This document shows, piece after piece, positions 32,065-43,261 of a stretch of 64,000 nucleotides of DNA; position 1 is the stretch's first letter; each line of letters starts with the position of its first letter. Both the position numbers and the translations under genes were made by a program. The notes beneath the pieces are model-generated. The model had not been told where the DNA came from. It did not search any database and worked only from the letters and a program-made list of their open reading frames with translations. This DNA comes from Bradyrhizobiaceae bacterium PARB1 (GTDB taxonomy: Bacteria > Pseudomonadota > Alphaproteobacteria > Rhizobiales > Xanthobacteraceae). Location of the stretch: NCBI GenBank assembly GCA_002256345.1, contig NKIY01000005.1:252485-316484 (forward strand), written 5' to 3'.

Positions 32065-32553
32065 TCAGTCTTCCTTGTAGCCATATTCCGGCACATTCCC
32101 GCTGGCGCCGTAATACTTGTACGGCAGGAACTTGCCCGACATCGTGATCTTCACACGATCGCCCTTCGGATTCGCCACGCGTTCGAAGTCGAAGTCGAAA
32201 TCGATGGCCGACATGATGCCGTCGCCGAACTCTTCCTCGATCAGCATCTTCCAGGCCGGACCGTTCACCATCACCATCTCGTAGAAGCGATAGATCAAGG
32301 GGTCCTGCGGCGGCATCTGCATGGTTTCAGCCCGCATCGGGATCTCGTTGAGCATCGCGGTCTCGGCCTTGGAGAGCCCGAACAGCTCGCCGGCATTGGC
32401 CGCCTGCGGCTTCGTGAGCTTCATGTTGCCGAGAATGGCGCCGACGATCAGAACGTCGGAATAACCGCCGATCTTTTCGCAGATATATTTCCAGGTCCAT
32501 TCCTTCTCGCGCTTGATGTCGAGCAGCTTTTCGGTGAGGTCGGATCGCAGCAT
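32065..32553 (-). CDS. cynS: Cyanate hydratase (cyanase)
   Basis: This 162-residue enzyme converts cyanate and bicarbonate to ammonia and CO2 as a cytosolic decamer. The catalytic Arg, Glu and Ser are present as Arg89 and Glu92 in YRFYEMVMVNG and Ser115 in GIMSAIDFDF, which correspond to E. coli Arg96, Glu99 and Ser122. The N-terminal part has the usual helical DNA-binding-like fold. It is last in the order binding protein, permease, ATPase, cynS, the same order as cyanobacterial cynABDS. Confidence 0.97.
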   Translation of the reverse strand: MLRSDLTEKLLDIKREKEWTWKYICEKIGGYSDVLIVGAILGNMKLTKPQAANAGELFGLSKAETAMLNEIPMRAETMQMPPQDPLIYRFYEMVMVNGPAWKMLIEEEFGDGIMSAIDFDFDFERVANPKGDRVKITMSGKFLPYKYYGASGNVPEYGYKED

Positions 32554-32577: not shown

Positions 32578-33471
32578 TTAGCGCATGGCGCTTTGAAGAG
32601 ACGGCATCGTTGGCGCCTCGGTGAATACAGGCCGCACCACGGGCACATTGCGCGGGTCGTGGTTCGGCGTGTTGGCGGTGAAGGTCTTGCTGCGCGTCAC
32701 CAAGAAATCGATGATGTGGTTGCGCAGCGCGTAGTAGTGCGGATGTTTGTGCAGATCGATGCGGGCGCGGTCCTTCGGCAGTGGGTTCTCGACGATCTCC
32801 GCCAGCACGGCGCCGGGGCCGTTGGTCATGAGAAAAATCTTGTCGGCGAGATACATCGCCTCGTCCACGTCATGGGTGATCATGAAGGTGGTCTGGCCTG
32901 TCTCCAGCGTCACACGCCTCACCTCGTCCTGCAGCGTGCCGCGCGTCAGTGCATCCAGCGCCGAGAACGGCTCGTCCATCAGCATGATCTTTGGCGTGAT
33001 CGACAGCGCCCGCGCGATACCGACGCGCTGCTTCATGCCGCCGGAGAGTTCGGACGGCCGCTTGTGCTCGGAGCCGGTGAGACCGACCTTGTCGATAAAG
33101 GTCTGCGCATGGGCGCGGATCTTTGCCTTGTCCCATTTGCGCCATTTCGACGAGACCGCATAGGCGATGTTGCCCATGACCGTCATCCAGGGCAGCAGCG
33201 CGTGGCTCTGGAAGATTACCGCACGATCGAGGCTGGTGCCGGCGATCGCCTGGCCGTCGACGATCACGGTGCCCTCCGTGGGCTCGTCGAGCCCGGCGAG
33301 AATGTTCAGCACCGTGGTCTTGCCGCACCCGGAATGACCGATGATGCAGCCGAACTCGCCGGGTGCCAGCGACAGCCAGAGATTTTCGAAGATCGTGGTG
33401 GCACCGCCCGATGGCTGCGGATAGCGTTTTGCGATGCCTTCGATGGAGATGAATTTGTTGCTGCTCATCAC
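32578..33471 (-). CDS. cynD: ABC transporter ATP-binding protein, nitrate/cyanate type
   Basis: This 297-residue ATPase has Walker A GHSGCGKTT near residue 45, the signature LSGGMKQRVGIARAL near 147 and Walker B IMLMDEPFSALDALTR. The C-terminal extension (YYALRNHIIDFLVTRS) is typical of NrtD/CynD/SsuB relatives. It would power cyanate (or nitrate-like anion) import with the permease and binding protein encoded upstream. cynS begins 24 bp after its stop. The symbol is given by context only. A repeat separates it from the permease gene. Confidence 0.88.
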   Translation of the reverse strand: MMSSNKFISIEGIAKRYPQPSGGATTIFENLWLSLAPGEFGCIIGHSGCGKTTVLNILAGLDEPTEGTVIVDGQAIAGTSLDRAVIFQSHALLPWMTVMGNIAYAVSSKWRKWDKAKIRAHAQTFIDKVGLTGSEHKRPSELSGGMKQRVGIARALSITPKIMLMDEPFSALDALTRGTLQDEVRRVTLETGQTTFMITHDVDEAMYLADKIFLMTNGPGAVLAEIVENPLPKDRARIDLHKHPHYYALRNHIIDFLVTRSKTFTANTPNHDPRNVPVVRPVFTEAPTMPSLQSAMR

Positions 33472-33655: not shown

Positions 33656-34495
33656 TCACTCCGGAAACGTGACCATGCGGGTGAAGCGGGCAAGGATCTG
33701 GTCGAGCAGCATGCCGACCAGGCCGATCATCAAAATCGCGATGATCACATTGGTGATCGACAGGTTGTTCCATTCGTTCCAGACGAAGTAACCGATGCCG
33801 GTGCCCCCCACGAGCATCTCGGCAGCGACGATGACCAGCCAGGCGATGCCGATGGAGATGCGCATGCCGGTGAGAATGGTGGGCGCCGCCGCAGGCAGGA
33901 TCACGGTGAAGGCGCGGCGGAAGGTGCCGACTTCCAGCGTGCGCGCGACATTCACCCATTCCTTGCGCACGGACGCGACGCCAAACGCCGTATTCAGCAG
34001 CATCGGCCACACCGAGCAGATGAAGATCACGAAGATAGCGGAGAGCGAGGAATCCTTGATCGTGTAGAGCGCCAGCGGCATCCAGGCCAGCGGCGAGATC
34101 GGCTTCAGCACCTGGATGAAAGGATCGAGCGCCTTGTTCATCAGCGGTGACATGCCGATGAGAAAGCCGAGCGGGATCGCGACCAGGACGGCAATGAGAT
34201 AGCCGAGCCCGACGCGGCCGATGGAATAAGCGAGCTGGATGCCGAGGCCCTTGTCATTCGGCCCGTTGTCATAGAACGGCCGCTTGAGGTGCTCCCAGAG
34301 CTTTGCGCCGACATCGAGCGGACCGGGCATGGCGGATTTGCCCTGGGTCGCGGTGATGCCCATCAGCCGCGCATATTCCGGCGACATGGTCGTGGTAGCA
34401 GCGCTCTGGCGCGTGGCGAGATGCCAGGTGCCGAGGAATGCAAGGAACAGCGCGAGCGATACGACGGCAGCGCGGAAGCGGAGGGATTTTGTCAT
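33656..34495 (-). CDS. cynB: ABC transporter permease, nitrate/cyanate type
   Basis: This 279-residue membrane protein has about six helices. The cytoplasmic EAA-like loop is seen as EVGTFRRAFTVILPAAAPTILTGMRISIG, which contacts the ATPase. PFIQVLKPISPLAWMPLALYTI is the family-typical stretch in NrtB/SsuC-like permeases. It works with the adjacent binding protein and ATPase to import a small anion, most likely cyanate given cynS. Palindromic repeats sit on both sides of the gene within the operon. Confidence 0.88.
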   Translation of the reverse strand: MTKSLRFRAAVVSLALFLAFLGTWHLATRQSAATTTMSPEYARLMGITATQGKSAMPGPLDVGAKLWEHLKRPFYDNGPNDKGLGIQLAYSIGRVGLGYLIAVLVAIPLGFLIGMSPLMNKALDPFIQVLKPISPLAWMPLALYTIKDSSLSAIFVIFICSVWPMLLNTAFGVASVRKEWVNVARTLEVGTFRRAFTVILPAAAPTILTGMRISIGIAWLVIVAAEMLVGGTGIGYFVWNEWNNLSITNVIIAILMIGLVGMLLDQILARFTRMVTFPE

Positions 34496-34654: not shown

Positions 34655-36034
34655 TCACGACGCCTTCTTGATCTTGAAGCTCGCCACATAGTCCTCCGGC
34701 TTGGTCGGATCGAAGGTCTTGCCCATCACCGCGAACGACTTGTAGGCGGTCGCCGGCGGGCTCAAGCCCATCTCCTTCATCACCTTGCCGGTATCGGTCG
34801 CGAGATAGATCTGCTCCGCCACGGCCTTGTAATCCACATCGCCCTTGATCTGCCCCCAGCGCTTCATCTGGGTCATCATCCACACGGCAAAGCTCTGCCA
34901 GGGGAATGGATCGAAATCGACGCGCTTCGGATCGGTCTTGATGCCGCCGAGGCCGTCCGCATAGGTGCCGGTGAGCACCTGCTCCAGCACCACCGGCGGT
35001 GCATTGAGATAGGCCGCAGGCGCGATGGCTTCGGCGATCGACTTGCGGTTCTCCGCCTTCGACGCATAGGCCGTGGCATCGACGATGGCACGCGTCAGTG
35101 CGGCGAAAGAATTCGGCGAGTTTGTGATGAATTCGCGGCTGGCAGCAAAACTGCAGCACGGATGCCCGTCCCAGATTTCCTTCGACAGGATATGCATGAA
35201 GCCGACGCCGTCATAGATCGCGCGCTGGCAGATATTGTCGGGGGCGAGGAAGCCGTCGATATTGTCGGCGCGCAGATTGGCGACCATTTCCGGCGGCGGC
35301 ACCGAGCGGATCTGGATATCCGCATCGGGATCGATGCCGTGCTCGGCGAGATAATAGCGCAGCAGGTAGTTGTGCATCGAATAGTCGAACGGAACGGCGA
35401 TCTTGAAGCCTTTCCAGTCCTTCGGATCGCGCTTGTCCTTGTGCTTCATGGCGAGCGTGATGCCCTGCCCGTTGATATTCTCGATCGCCGGCACGGTGAA
35501 CGGGATCGGCTGCGAGCCGAGCCCGAGCGAAATCGCGATCGGCATCGGCGCCAGCATATGCGCGGCGTCGTATTCCTTGTTGATGGTCTTGTCGCGAATG
35601 ACGGCCCAGCCGGCGGTCTTCACCACTTCCACCTTCAGCCCCTGCTTCTGATAGAAGCCGAGCGGATCCGCCATGATGATCGGCGTCGCACAGGTGATCG
35701 GAATGAAGCCGACCTTGAGGTCGGTCTTTTCCAGCTTGCCCGCGCCTTGCGCGAACACTTCGGTCGCCGTCTTGATCGGGAAGAACTGCGACAGCGCCGC
35801 CAGCGCGCTGGAGGCACCGACCGACTGCAGGAAAGCGCGGCGGGTAGCCTGCTGCGGAAATAGCTGGCGCATCACGGCGGAGGCGACGACGCCCTCGTAG
35901 CGCTTCTCCGCGCTATCCGGGACATCGCACTGCAGGCGCAACGCGGCCTCGTGGGCGGACTGGCTGTCGTGCTGCCCGCAGTCACAGGCGCCGAGGCGCT
36001 TATTCGGGTCGAACGGATTGTCGAATGTGGACAT
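34655..36034 (-). CDS. cynA: ABC transporter substrate-binding protein, nitrate/cyanate type, with Tat signal
   Basis: This is a 459-residue exported receptor. Residues 1-60 form an unusual N-terminal extension with RLGACDCGQHDSQ (Cys17, Cys19, His22) before the twin-arginine signal ATRRAFLQSVGASSALAAL (Arg65-Arg66). The mature part resembles NrtA/CmpA/CynA receptors (LKVGFIPITCATPIIMADPLGF). Its ligand is inferred as cyanate from the cluster. GGAGGAG precedes the ATG and a candidate sigma-54 promoter lies about 35-50 bp upstream. It is the first gene of the operon and is divergent from the PAS/sigma-54 activator. Confidence 0.88.
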   Translation of the reverse strand: MSTFDNPFDPNKRLGACDCGQHDSQSAHEAALRLQCDVPDSAEKRYEGVVASAVMRQLFPQQATRRAFLQSVGASSALAALSQFFPIKTATEVFAQGAGKLEKTDLKVGFIPITCATPIIMADPLGFYQKQGLKVEVVKTAGWAVIRDKTINKEYDAAHMLAPMPIAISLGLGSQPIPFTVPAIENINGQGITLAMKHKDKRDPKDWKGFKIAVPFDYSMHNYLLRYYLAEHGIDPDADIQIRSVPPPEMVANLRADNIDGFLAPDNICQRAIYDGVGFMHILSKEIWDGHPCCSFAASREFITNSPNSFAALTRAIVDATAYASKAENRKSIAEAIAPAAYLNAPPVVLEQVLTGTYADGLGGIKTDPKRVDFDPFPWQSFAVWMMTQMKRWGQIKGDVDYKAVAEQIYLATDTGKVMKEMGLSPPATAYKSFAVMGKTFDPTKPEDYVASFKIKKAS

Positions 36035-36068
36035 TGTGACTCCTCCGGTGATGCTCCCGAGGAGTATT

Positions 36069-36084
36069 CAAGGAGTGTGCCAGC
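36069..36084 (-). promoter_or_regulatory. Candidate sigma-54 (-24/-12) promoter for the cyn operon
   Basis: On the minus strand the sequence reads TGGCAC-ACTCC-TTGAA. This matches the sigma-54 consensus TGGCAC-N5-TTGCW except for one base in the -12 element (GA for GC). The expected start site would be about 25 nt before the first cyn gene, and a strong RBS follows. Confidence 0.6.
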
Positions 36085-36139
36085 CTCGGCCGGTGCGAGA
36101 AGTCCAAGTGCCGCAGGCGTTTTTCGGATTCGTTGGAAA

Positions 36140-36172
36140 CTACGAAATTTCGTGCTACACGAAATTTCGTAG
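36140..36172. promoter_or_regulatory. Tandem palindromes, probable activator (UAS) sites for the sigma-54 regulator
   Basis: ctacgaaatttcgtg-cta-cacgaaatttcgtag is a perfect 15+3+15 inverted repeat. Each arm contains the 12-bp palindrome ACGAAATTTCGT, with centres 17 bp apart. A third, imperfect copy (tacgaaatctcgg) follows at 36179-36191, just before the regulator's RBS. The spacing upstream of the -24/-12 site fits enhancer sites, and the overlap with the regulator's leader suggests autoregulation. Confidence 0.7.
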
Positions 36173-36199
36173 CCAGATTACGAAATCTCGGAGTCCGCC

Positions 36200-38092
<1,893 letters not shown>

Positions 38093-39638: not shown

Positions 39639-40298
39639 TTACGCCACACAGCTTCCCACGGGCAGAAAAGCGTGGTTCAGCTCGATGCTCGTAAAATTCG
39701 TCCGCGGATGCTGACTTAGCCAAAACGCCTGACCGTTAAGACTCAGCTGCTCTGGTGTTCTTTTACTCTTCTTCAGAAAGGCGTTTATCTGTTCGACAAT
39801 AACGTTTGGTGCGCCAGCCAACACATATCCTGTCATAAATCCTCGGCTATGAGCAGCACCATATTTTCTTGAACAGAAGCGATCCATCCCTTCCTTCACG
39901 TACTCGCGAATAAGATTAGCGTCTCCCGCTGCGACCCTCTTACATTCGATAATCGCGTGAGGATCGTGCTGCCCAAGCTTCAGGAATATCTCGATGAACA
40001 GTATCGGAATATCGGTTCTTCCGTCAGGAACCGGAAACTCCGTAGATCTAGATTCTGTTCCTGGCAAAACGACCATTGACCTTCGCCAAGGAAGTTTCCG
40101 CGCTTTAAGCGCCTCTCTCATCCCATCGCGCAGGCGTTCTGTAATTACAATCTCTTTTGCATCCGAAGCCAAATCGTGATGTTTTCTAGCTATTTCCCAT
40201 CCAAATTCGACTGTCTGTAGAATGGCGGCCGCAATATCCGGCGCAAGATCGATAAGTGCCTCTCCTATTACTGCGGGCTTCTCAAACGGGATGCTCAC
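39639..40298 (-). CDS. Putative PD-(D/E)XK nuclease partner of the upstream DNA methylase
   Basis: This 219-residue protein carries RTDIPILFIEIF and HAIIECKRV, with Asp96, Glu118 and Lys120 in the D...ExK pattern of PD-(D/E)XK nucleases. No family name is recognised with certainty. It starts at a GTG overlapping the methylase stop (GTGA), so the two are translationally coupled. Codon use is AT-richer than the neighbours, which suggests transfer. The likely role is DNA cleavage in a restriction or anti-phage module; a non-catalytic role is possible. Confidence 0.65.
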   Translation of the reverse strand: MSIPFEKPAVIGEALIDLAPDIAAAILQTVEFGWEIARKHHDLASDAKEIVITERLRDGMREALKARKLPWRRSMVVLPGTESRSTEFPVPDGRTDIPILFIEIFLKLGQHDPHAIIECKRVAAGDANLIREYVKEGMDRFCSRKYGAAHSRGFMTGYVLAGAPNVIVEQINAFLKKSKRTPEQLSLNGQAFWLSQHPRTNFTSIELNHAFLPVGSCVA

Positions 40299-43261
40299 CT
40301 CGAAGCTCCCGAGAAACTTTCTGCCACAATCGCGTCGGCATCTTCTAGCGCCGCGCTCCTCATCCAGAATCTTCGTGCCGCAGGTTTGATGAGAACAACC
40401 TCTGACCGAGAGTGAATCCGCAGCTCCCGCTCGCCGATTAATGAAGCCGCGAGGGGCACACGCAAACGATCACCGATAGCTTTGATTGTGCTACCGAGAC
40501 TTCCCTCAGGCTTTATAATGTCAACGCGAGATTTTCGAGCAGCATCCAAAAGGATGAAGCGGATAATGCGAAGGGGCGACTGCTGCGGCAGATCATAAAT
40601 TTCTGCCTTCATGCTGCGCTTATTGGAAACGCTGAACCACGGCTGGATACCAGCCAAAAAAGCGTCAGCATATGCGCGCAGATCACCGTCAACACTCGCC
40701 GGTTCTGCAGCTCTTTGACGACCTTCATCCCATTGCCATTCAGCCCGGAGAAAACCGTCTTGCACCACTAATCGATCAATCGCATCCAGATCGTAGATAT
40801 CGCAAACTAATCTATCTAGGTTAGACCAATCATCTGGGGTCACATCTTTTCGCTTTAGCTTTCGCTCTAAAGCGAGGAGCTCCTTTCCAGCCGGAGACGC
40901 AAGAGTCCTATCAAGGCGCGGAATAGGCAGAAGACCAACATCGTTGGTCAAAAGCCTTCTCTTCCACAGACCAAATTCAGATGCTGTCATCAAAAAAAAC
41001 CAAGTCGCAAACGAGGAACTAAGAATCATTGAGAGCAGACGGCCGCTCTCCTGATTTTTCACTCCCAACGCAGCGCCAAAGTACGCATCCGTATAGACAA
41101 GGTCGCGCGTAGACAAAGCTGTCATCGGCCGAGGACTTGCTTTTAGAAACTCCTTCACAAGCAGCAATGGCGCGCGATACGTTTCTCTGGATCGCGGCCA
41201 CTGAGCCTCGCCTTCTTCGAAGCTCTCAAGATTTGATGGCAGCTTAAAGTAATCAAGTGATTTGGTCGTCAGTATTTCAAGACCACGCAGATGGGACGCG
41301 GCCCGCGTCCGGCTTTCTGGCTTACCTAAGATCAGACCATCGCGCCAAACGGAGCCGATCGATTCCAACCATTTATTCAAGGACGAATACTCGGCTTTCA
41401 TTTCGTCGAGCAGAGCTATATCGCGAGATCGCCCGAATGCGACTGACTTAAGACGCTCTGGATCTTTCGCCCATTCATCAAGAGATAGTGTCGACACGTC
41501 GCTAGGGGATATCTCAAACGTTTGAGACCGCTCTCCTGCAGGAGACCAAGGAACGTTTACAACAGTTAGCTGCCCTTCACGCTGCTTTCTACAGTTAGCT
41601 AAAAGTATAACGGCTGGCATTTTTGCCGTTGGGAAAAGCCAACGAATAAGCGGCGCAAGATTTACGATTGTCGCAGGAGACAGCCGTTCAACGACGTTTC
41701 TAGCTGCCGCCGCTCCAGTCTTACTGCCGGAAAAGAAAGGCATAGCACTTAGCACAATACCATAGCGCGTCTTATCGTGCGCAAAGTCCATCGCGCGCAT
41801 CACGAAGTCGAGCCCTTCGCCGCGAGGCTGGAGGGGCACTGCTTTCGAAGCATGAGAATGTCGTTCGGCAGTTCCCCGCTTACCCTTAAAAGTCCACGGG
41901 GGATTACCCACGACCAAGTCGAATTGGCGCCTAGTGCCTTCGACTAGTAGGGCCGCCCCGGCAGGAGTTGTTTCTACGTCCCGAGCATTTCCAACGAACA
42001 AAGTCCGCCCTATCAGCTCTTGAAATTTGAGAGATTCTGGCGGCTGCGGCTCGGGATCGAGCTCAAGCGCCGCGAGATAAAGACTAAAAGCGGCAACGCG
42101 TACAGCAGCCTCGCTGATATCAACTCCGAATATCTGCTCGTACAACGTTGCTCTAATGACGGCTCGGGTCGGCTTTCCCTTACTTCGTATCAATACGAGC
42201 CGCCGAAACGACTCCACGAGAAAAATACCGGACCCGCACGTTAAGTCTAAGATAGTCTCTTTGCCACTTACGCCATCCAAAACTTCATCGAGCACAAGCG
42301 AGACAACGGGCAAACGTGTGTAATGCACACCAAGCTTCTTGGCGCTACCTTCTGAAGTGCCATCGGCGTCTTCATCAGACTTTGAATGAGCGAATTGCTC
42401 ATAAATCGAACTTATAAGCTCGACGGGAATAATATCAAACCGATACGGAAACAACGAATGTTGTCCCGTTTCAGGATCCACCGCCTCGAGAAAATCAGCC
42501 ACTCTCGCGAAATGTTTCTGGCGTAGTTGAGCCATCGGCATTGACGCAGGAAACATATCGCCATTGAAAGAATCGCGCAGCCACGAAAACAACGACTGCG
42601 CGGACGCCGAAACGCGCAATGCATCAGGCAGAGTTTCTTTACCGCAGTGTTGGACTAGCTTCTTAGTATCAACGATACCACGATCGACTAGGTACTGCGT
42701 AAAAATGGCACGCCCAATTAAACCTTGAGCGGCTCCCCGATCCACTCCCTCAGCGACCAAATCTCTTTCGAGAGCAGAAAGTTCGAGCAAGAGCTGCTGA
42801 TCGACTGTCGATTTACGATTGATAGTCTCGTTGTGCAGCCAAAATTGCCCGCTCTCCATAGCAAATCGGCCCGCCAGTTGATCGAGTTCAACGAGCTGAT
42901 TATCGATTGCTTGAAAGGTATGTAGGCGATGAAGATCGGCATCTCCCTCTGCTTGCGGACGGCCGAAACCGTTGTAAAGATCAATTCTATTTGGGCTCAC
43001 AACCCAAAGAAGCGGCGCAAAGCCCTCATTCCAAATTTCACGGCGCCATACACTTACCTCGTCTGCCGAAGGCGGTACTGATTTGTACTTGAAGTACACA
43101 GTTAGAGCAGACGGGCCCCGCCAAAGGGCATCTGGTGAAAAATATGAACCGCGGCGCCCGGCTCGCGCCTCTCGGGCCACTCGAACGCCGGGAGCGGGCC
43201 GCCCGTTGTTTAGGAAGCCCGTTGCCTCAAGAACTTTCCCGAGCGGGCCCGGTATTGCCAT
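40295..43261 (-). CDS. Large N6-adenine DNA methylase (Eco57I-like), restriction-modification type
   Basis: This is a 988-residue protein. Residues 1-110 form an uncharacterised N-terminal domain (VWRREIWNEGFAPLLWVVSP). The methylase core has GVHYT (motif X) at about 311, LDLTCGSGIFLVES (motif I) at about 338 and LVVGNPPW (motif IV) at about 449. The second half (about 600-988) resembles target-recognition and helical regions of type IIG enzymes, but no nuclease motif is obvious, matching the separate nuclease gene. It would protect host DNA by adenine methylation. GC is lower than the host from about codon 60 on. Confidence 0.85.
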   Translation of the reverse strand: MAIPGPLGKVLEATGFLNNGRPAPGVRVAREARAGRRGSYFSPDALWRGPSALTVYFKYKSVPPSADEVSVWRREIWNEGFAPLLWVVSPNRIDLYNGFGRPQAEGDADLHRLHTFQAIDNQLVELDQLAGRFAMESGQFWLHNETINRKSTVDQQLLLELSALERDLVAEGVDRGAAQGLIGRAIFTQYLVDRGIVDTKKLVQHCGKETLPDALRVSASAQSLFSWLRDSFNGDMFPASMPMAQLRQKHFARVADFLEAVDPETGQHSLFPYRFDIIPVELISSIYEQFAHSKSDEDADGTSEGSAKKLGVHYTRLPVVSLVLDEVLDGVSGKETILDLTCGSGIFLVESFRRLVLIRSKGKPTRAVIRATLYEQIFGVDISEAAVRVAAFSLYLAALELDPEPQPPESLKFQELIGRTLFVGNARDVETTPAGAALLVEGTRRQFDLVVGNPPWTFKGKRGTAERHSHASKAVPLQPRGEGLDFVMRAMDFAHDKTRYGIVLSAMPFFSGSKTGAAAARNVVERLSPATIVNLAPLIRWLFPTAKMPAVILLANCRKQREGQLTVVNVPWSPAGERSQTFEISPSDVSTLSLDEWAKDPERLKSVAFGRSRDIALLDEMKAEYSSLNKWLESIGSVWRDGLILGKPESRTRAASHLRGLEILTTKSLDYFKLPSNLESFEEGEAQWPRSRETYRAPLLLVKEFLKASPRPMTALSTRDLVYTDAYFGAALGVKNQESGRLLSMILSSSFATWFFLMTASEFGLWKRRLLTNDVGLLPIPRLDRTLASPAGKELLALERKLKRKDVTPDDWSNLDRLVCDIYDLDAIDRLVVQDGFLRAEWQWDEGRQRAAEPASVDGDLRAYADAFLAGIQPWFSVSNKRSMKAEIYDLPQQSPLRIIRFILLDAARKSRVDIIKPEGSLGSTIKAIGDRLRVPLAASLIGERELRIHSRSEVVLIKPAARRFWMRSAALEDADAIVAESFSGASR

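Follow-up and report, generated by a model that had tools for sequence, protein, structure and literature searches.

Between a gene for a sigma-54 activator and a cyanate operon, Bradyrhizobiaceae bacterium PARB1 carries a set of closely spaced palindromes, which raises the question of which protein reads them and to what effect. We addressed this in a window of 64,000 nucleotides, the whole stretch of DNA that was analysed, in which the 165-bp gap between the cynA start (36034) and the regulator start (36200) reads ctACGAAATTTCGTgctacACGAAATTTCGTagccagattACGAAATCTCGGag. The genes on either side are:

36200..38092, plus strand: cynF-like regulator of 630 aa (Pfam, NCBIfam, orthologues)
34655..36034, minus strand: cynA, ABC substrate-binding protein (NMT1_2, PF13379 in Pfam)
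33656..34495, minus strand: cynB, ABC permease (TIGR01183 above cut-off)
32578..33471, minus strand: cynD, ABC ATPase (best NCBIfam match TIGR01184, slightly below cut-off)
32065..32553, minus strand: cynS, cyanase (PF02560; TIGR00673 above cut-off)

The regulator has a PAS domain at about residues 155-275, a sigma-54 AAA+ domain at 313-479 (PF00158, E 4.9e-74) and a Fis-type HTH at 578-619, where the HTH_8 match falls under the curated cut-off yet aligns with the HTH of FhlA; its recognition helix reads KPTTLASR. In the gap itself we placed the following elements:

36142..36153, no strand: predicted CynF site 1, ACGAAATTTCGT, consensus ACGA-N4-TCGT
36159..36170, no strand: predicted CynF site 2, ACGAAATTTCGT, centre 17 bp from that of site 1
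36180..36191, no strand: predicted CynF site 3, ACGAAATCTCGG, 2 mismatches, centre 21 bp from that of site 2
36068..36082, minus strand: predicted sigma-54 promoter of cynABDS, TGGCAC-N5-TTGA, 9/10 consensus, 59 bp from site 1

The locus has the make-up of a CynF-type system, with an activator that joins a sigma-54 AAA+ domain to a Fis-type HTH, a divergent cynABDS in that order on the minus strand and, before cynA, a sigma-54 promoter that departs from the consensus where the GC of the -12 element is replaced by GA.

The first-pass annotation had described two identical 12-bp palindromes in tandem, forming a perfect 15+3+15 inverted repeat, and an imperfect third copy 21 bp on. All of this was confirmed: read directly, the repeat is ctACGAAATTTCGTg-cta-cACGAAATTTCGTag, and the third copy, which orthologous loci retain, ends in G, within a TCGGAG that carries the cynF Shine-Dalgarno sequence. 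The distance to the cyn start site that it had given also holds, the three centres lying about 90, 107 and 128 bp upstream of the position expected from the sigma-54 promoter. Exact copies of ACGAAATTTCGT are limited to sites 1 and 2 in the window; at up to two mismatches there are five matches against 1.82 expected, and since 4 of 100 shuffles reach five, site 3 is not significant in the window when taken alone. We accept it as a true site on the strength of its retention, at the same distance from site 2, in orthologues. Genome-wide, the tandem 12-mer pair occupies a single place in 6.95 Mb, even at up to three mismatches, and ACGAN4TCGT-N5-ACGAN4TCGT has one exact match; this uniqueness, together with the shuffles and the multi-genome pattern scans presented below, rules out a chance repeat.

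CynF has been characterised in Pseudomonas pseudoalcaligenes (oleovorans) CECT5344, the one strain in which it is shown to be required: according to the passages found of PMC6627978, it is essential there for cynABDS expression, a cynF mutant lacks cyanase and the ability to grow on cyanate, and cynF lies 268 bp upstream of cynA. The same passages describe an organisation like that of the window, with a divergent activator of the sigma-54 Fis family, cynABDS and a sigma-54 promoter before cynA. The Pseudomonas proteins of our set are about 58% identical to the window regulator, and the gap is 268 bp as against 165 bp. Three Pseudomonas loci in our set (L117, L125 and L180) have a start-to-start gap between cynA and cynF of exactly 268 bp and contain the array, a match which, by way of these relatives, ties the array to the experimentally required regulator. 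No CynF operator is named in the main-text passages found of PMC6627978, the main texts, mostly open-access, that we could search for CynF and the control of cyanate use gave no description of one, and papers containing the motif strings were unrelated by title, suggesting that CynF is known and its operator apparently undescribed.

To see which letters matter we turned to the orthologues. Across 168 distinct three-site arrays the ACGA and TCGT letters are 97-100% conserved (98-100% at site 1), except for the last base of site 3, which is T in 71%, while the middle four bases are A/T-rich yet free, the site centres being self-complementary at just 0.39-0.41 of positions. The 12-bp palindrome of the first-pass annotation stands as a description of the window and falls as the conserved unit, which is ACGA-N4-TCGT: the AAATTT-core palindrome was rejected in that role, conservation being confined to the outer ACGA and TCGT, and since the middle bases are free the AAATTT core and the 15-bp arms represent a local accident. 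Spacing is equally strict, with sites 1 and 2 exactly 17 bp apart in 176 of 178 distinct arrays, and sites 2 and 3 separated by 21, 22 or 23 bp in 92, 63 and 14 arrays, respectively (169 with a third site). At a step of 17 bp, sites 1 and 2 do not share a face of the helix, unlike sites a 21-22-bp step apart, and this weighs against the three-dimer enhancer proposed below. Site 3 ends in TCGGAG in 30 of 168 arrays and in TCGTAG in another 30, and in the window and many relatives the cynF Shine-Dalgarno sequence seems to have claimed the last base of the site. Three sites are not always required, because one lineage (L043-L048, a single genus) has just two; the regulators of L039-L048 match from about residue 140 onward only, their N-terminal part being absent.

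The array follows the regulator across genomes. Within the family, sites 1 and 2 are recognisable at exactly 17 bp within the cynA-cynF gap in 46 of 47 CynF loci (window included; the exception is L028), and most loci also have site 3, spaced 21 or 22 bp from site 2. A two-site pattern with at most one mismatch occurred in 92 of 300 family genomes against 9 for a reversed control pattern, and 28 of the 30 two-site family loci examined lie between cynF and cynA, the other two being one-mismatch matches. When one genome from each of 84,980 species was searched for the exact three-site pattern, at least 118 stretches matched, 116 of which were analysed. Among the matches listed, these 116 arrays span seven phyla, mostly Alpha- and Gammaproteobacteria; the fetched DNA holds a CynF-like activator at 109 of them and cynA or cynS at 95, and a single one, L105, which is cut off by the end of its locus, lacks both the activator and cynA/cynS. 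At several arrays without cyn genes or activator the DNA ends at the locus edge. The array is also present in Tardiphaga robiniae (L158). The first-pass annotation had held that absence of the motif from orthologous cyn loci would count against it; instead the motif is there, at fixed spacing, throughout the family and beyond it, in further classes and phyla.

The protein that accompanies the array shares one part above all. Of the 137 complete downstream proteins that a script selected, 127 have the helix [KR][PA]TTLxxR, and several of the ten exceptions are mis-picked frames at two-site loci whose orientation was guessed wrong. The sensor that goes with the array is PAS in CynF and seemingly GAF in the activators of Planctomycetota, Verrucomicrobiota, Kiritimatiellota, Nitrospirota and Desulfosarcina. 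The helix is unchanged at L135, L149 and L213, where a GAF-type activator faces a CMD/AhpD-like gene (domains assigned with Pfam at L135). Since the HTH is the shared factor when sensor and target genes differ, the HTH protein would be the one that reads the array, and from the near-exclusive linkage and the conserved recognition helix we infer that the regulator itself binds it. The alternative that the array is the operator of another regulator (global for nitrogen, or unlinked) and that CynF binds elsewhere is very unlikely. It can draw on the ammonium repression seen in Pseudomonas, a further level of control in the passages found of PMC6627978, but among the matches listed the exact array sits essentially only beside this activator class, in seven phyla; moreover it is single-copy in the window genome and persists with changed targets, where a GAF activator faces a CMD-family gene and the HTH is shared.

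The distance of the array from the sigma-54 promoter of cynABDS follows a pattern. Compared among clusters of dissimilar loci, the number of base pairs from the -24 element to site 1 is about 48, 58, 69, 81 or 92 (ranges 46-49, 55-60, 66-71, 77-83 and 90-94 bp), giving a periodicity of about 11 bp (R 0.75 vs 0.24 for the null, 0/2000). Promoters were placed by their fit to the consensus, a criterion that takes no account of distance but is biased to conserved -12/-24 letters. Start-codon distances showed no periodicity (R 0.13 for promoter to target ATG, 0.12 for array to target ATG and 0.29 for array to regulator ATG). The regulator tree calls for a minimum of 14 changes of gap class, and helical phase was kept in 11 phylogenetically independent pairs (p=0.007). 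The promoter-to-array distance is constrained to whole helical turns and the start-codon distances are aperiodic, as in a looping sigma-54 enhancer. IHF-like sites lie between promoter and array at a minority of loci, with 11 perfect sites against 0 in both the reversed-pattern and the shuffled controls; none was seen between promoter and array in the window.

The window promoter has a peculiarity of its own. Its -12 element (36068-36069) reads TTGA, while the five nearest relatives all have TTGC; of the 170 promoters identified, 165 have GC at -12, and the window is the sole TTGA. Either the cyn promoter of this strain is weakened or contacts by CynF compensate, and the operon may be weakly transcribed owing to the TTGA.

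The fixed-spacing motif at orthologous cynF-cyn loci and its helical phasing to the promoter support the enhancer function that the first-pass annotation had assigned to these repeats, and we are highly confident that the three palindromes are the sigma-54 enhancer of CynF, on which three dimers would assemble to act on PcynA. In the mechanism we propose, each ACGA-N4-TCGT site would take one CynF dimer through the Fis-type HTH (helix KPTTLASR), and three dimers held 17 and 21-23 bp apart would build the hexameric AAA+ ring of six protomers. The PAS part would sense cyanate or a signal derived from it and bring about ring closure, after which the ring would contact the sigma-54 polymerase at PcynA through a short DNA loop and use ATP for opening. 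Occupancy by CynF would also cover the cynF start region and its ribosome-binding site, and so probably limit synthesis of CynF itself. Two elements bear on this last step:

36133..36161, plus strand: candidate sigma-70 promoter of cynF, low confidence (TTGGAA, 17 bp, TACACG), overlapping sites 1 and 2
36190..36193, plus strand: cynF Shine-Dalgarno sequence GGAG, read from the sequence, overlapping site 3

With site 3 lying across the ribosome-binding site and a TTGG ahead of site 1, bound CynF would be expected to hinder cynF transcription: in orthologues the best -35-like hexamer (TTGG) peaks 9 bp before site 1, in 31 arrays, with 10 at the next position. A consensus-promoter scan of the window did not pass the candidate sigma-70 cynF promoter. 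Judged from position, we lean towards autoregulation in which bound CynF hinders its own transcription.

The same facts could be taken further, to an array that serves mainly as the operator of a cynF autorepressor, with cynABDS activated via other contacts. In the window the array does lie a short way upstream of the cynF ATG and overlaps the Shine-Dalgarno sequence of that gene, and the -35-like TTGG stands before site 1 in many orthologues, yet it is the distance to the divergent sigma-54 promoter that is helically constrained and not that to the cynF ATG; sigma-54 activators of this class mostly work from enhancer sites, and we regard such a role as most improbable. Equally improbable is control of cynF expression or translation by a leader-mRNA hairpin that the 15+3+15 repeat would form. 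In its favour, the RNA of the window array has a stable predicted fold (-27.1 kcal/mol, z -3.88), and pairing between the free positions of sites 1 and 2 is slightly more frequent than under a permutation that ignores relatedness. Against it, the 15-bp stem is kept in just 5 of 176 arrays with G-U allowed, and its four middle pairs are present in roughly half of the sequences; a hairpin would not account for site 3 or for the helical phase to the promoter on the opposite side, and the window gave no Rfam match and no terminator-like tail. An RNA leader element or riboregulator was rejected on that unconserved stem, and no terminator was found at the window array.

An enhancer of three CynF sites resembles that of NorR at norVW, where three enhancer sites are all essential and act as a scaffold for a higher-order oligomer (PMC2941729; PMC6296734). 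Both systems place three palindromes in a divergent regulator-target gap, and the NorR enhancer offers a parallel for how the CynF array would work. The two differ in that the E. coli NorR sites are GT-N7-AC at a computed spacing of 21 and 24 bp, against ACGA-N4-TCGT at 17 and 21-23 bp, that NorR senses NO through a GAF domain where CynF has PAS, and that the HTH helices are unlike. The window regulator is not a NorR (365 bits against a cut-off of 476 for the NorR model, PAS without GAF, another site). FhlA of E. coli is 52% identical to it over AAA+ and HTH, and in the comparison of the HTHs GLKRTTLLSRMKRLGI and its 16-residue counterpart are closely similar. The published FhlA consensus, CATTTCGTACGAAATG, shares the half-site letters TTTCGT/ACGAAA, but these are arranged the other way round and abut (PMC4987338). 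FhlA differs also in its GAF-type sensor, ACGA-N4-TCGT was not found in the E. coli hyc-hyp gap, and the window regulator falls outside FhlA (362.6 bits against a cut-off of 830, consensus unmatched). CbrB of Pseudomonas putida likewise has three spaced subsites upstream of sigma-54 promoters, which differ from the CynF sites in being non-palindromic and variably spaced (PMC6296734).

Beyond cyanate, we think it likely that the triple ACGA-N4-TCGT array at 17 and 21-23 bp is a portable enhancer module, which one HTH type (KPTTLASR) would connect to different sensors and targets and in which full-turn changes of promoter distance would be the main variation tolerated. CynF gains a precise predicted operator, by which cyanate regulons can be annotated in any genome and cyanate-inducible promoters designed. 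The rigid three-site geometry with its phased promoter also provides a data set on activator hexamer assembly and looping, where spacing, site number and phase can all be varied within a compact 165-bp gap, and the array predicts the regulons of unstudied activators with the same HTH.

Seven loci combine a three-site array with a divergent CMD/AhpD-like gene (L105, L113, L129, L135, L149, L163 and L213), in Planctomycetota, Verrucomicrobiota, Kiritimatiellota, Nitrospirota and Acidobacteriota. PF02627 was confirmed with Pfam at L135 and the other genes are similar by eye; the activator is GAF-type at L135 and by eye alike where readable. We take these loci to be an undescribed second regulon. 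In four proteobacterial MAGs (L134, L161, L166 and L186) the array precedes a distinct activator, with a start like DDYQWLFRKAP, and no cyn genes were seen.

Other arrays come with variants of the cyanate locus. In L092 and L093 the array lies between the gene of a CynF homologue and a divergent gene of the formate/nitrite transporter family (PF01226, run on L092), a possible alternative cyanate transporter; in Vreelandella titanicae (L150) cynS lies about 1.1 kb away, leaving room for a transporter gene. Two Methylobacterium loci (L103 and L182) have cynS divergent from cynF with the array, and no cynA in the fetched DNA. At L087/L232 a CynF homologue with a perfect array, spaced 18 and 22 bp, faces an MSMEG_0572-family gene (TIGR04044) in a Nit1C-type cluster. 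Other MSMEG_0572/Nit1C-type loci are without the array, and the idea that it is a general feature of Nit1C clusters was rejected, 1 of 14 loci having it (L232, beside the L087 CynF homologue). Elsewhere in the window, a 988-aa open reading frame on the minus strand (40295-43261) has DNA methyltransferase-like motifs (GNPPW), adjoins one of 219 aa and is possibly a restriction-modification gene.
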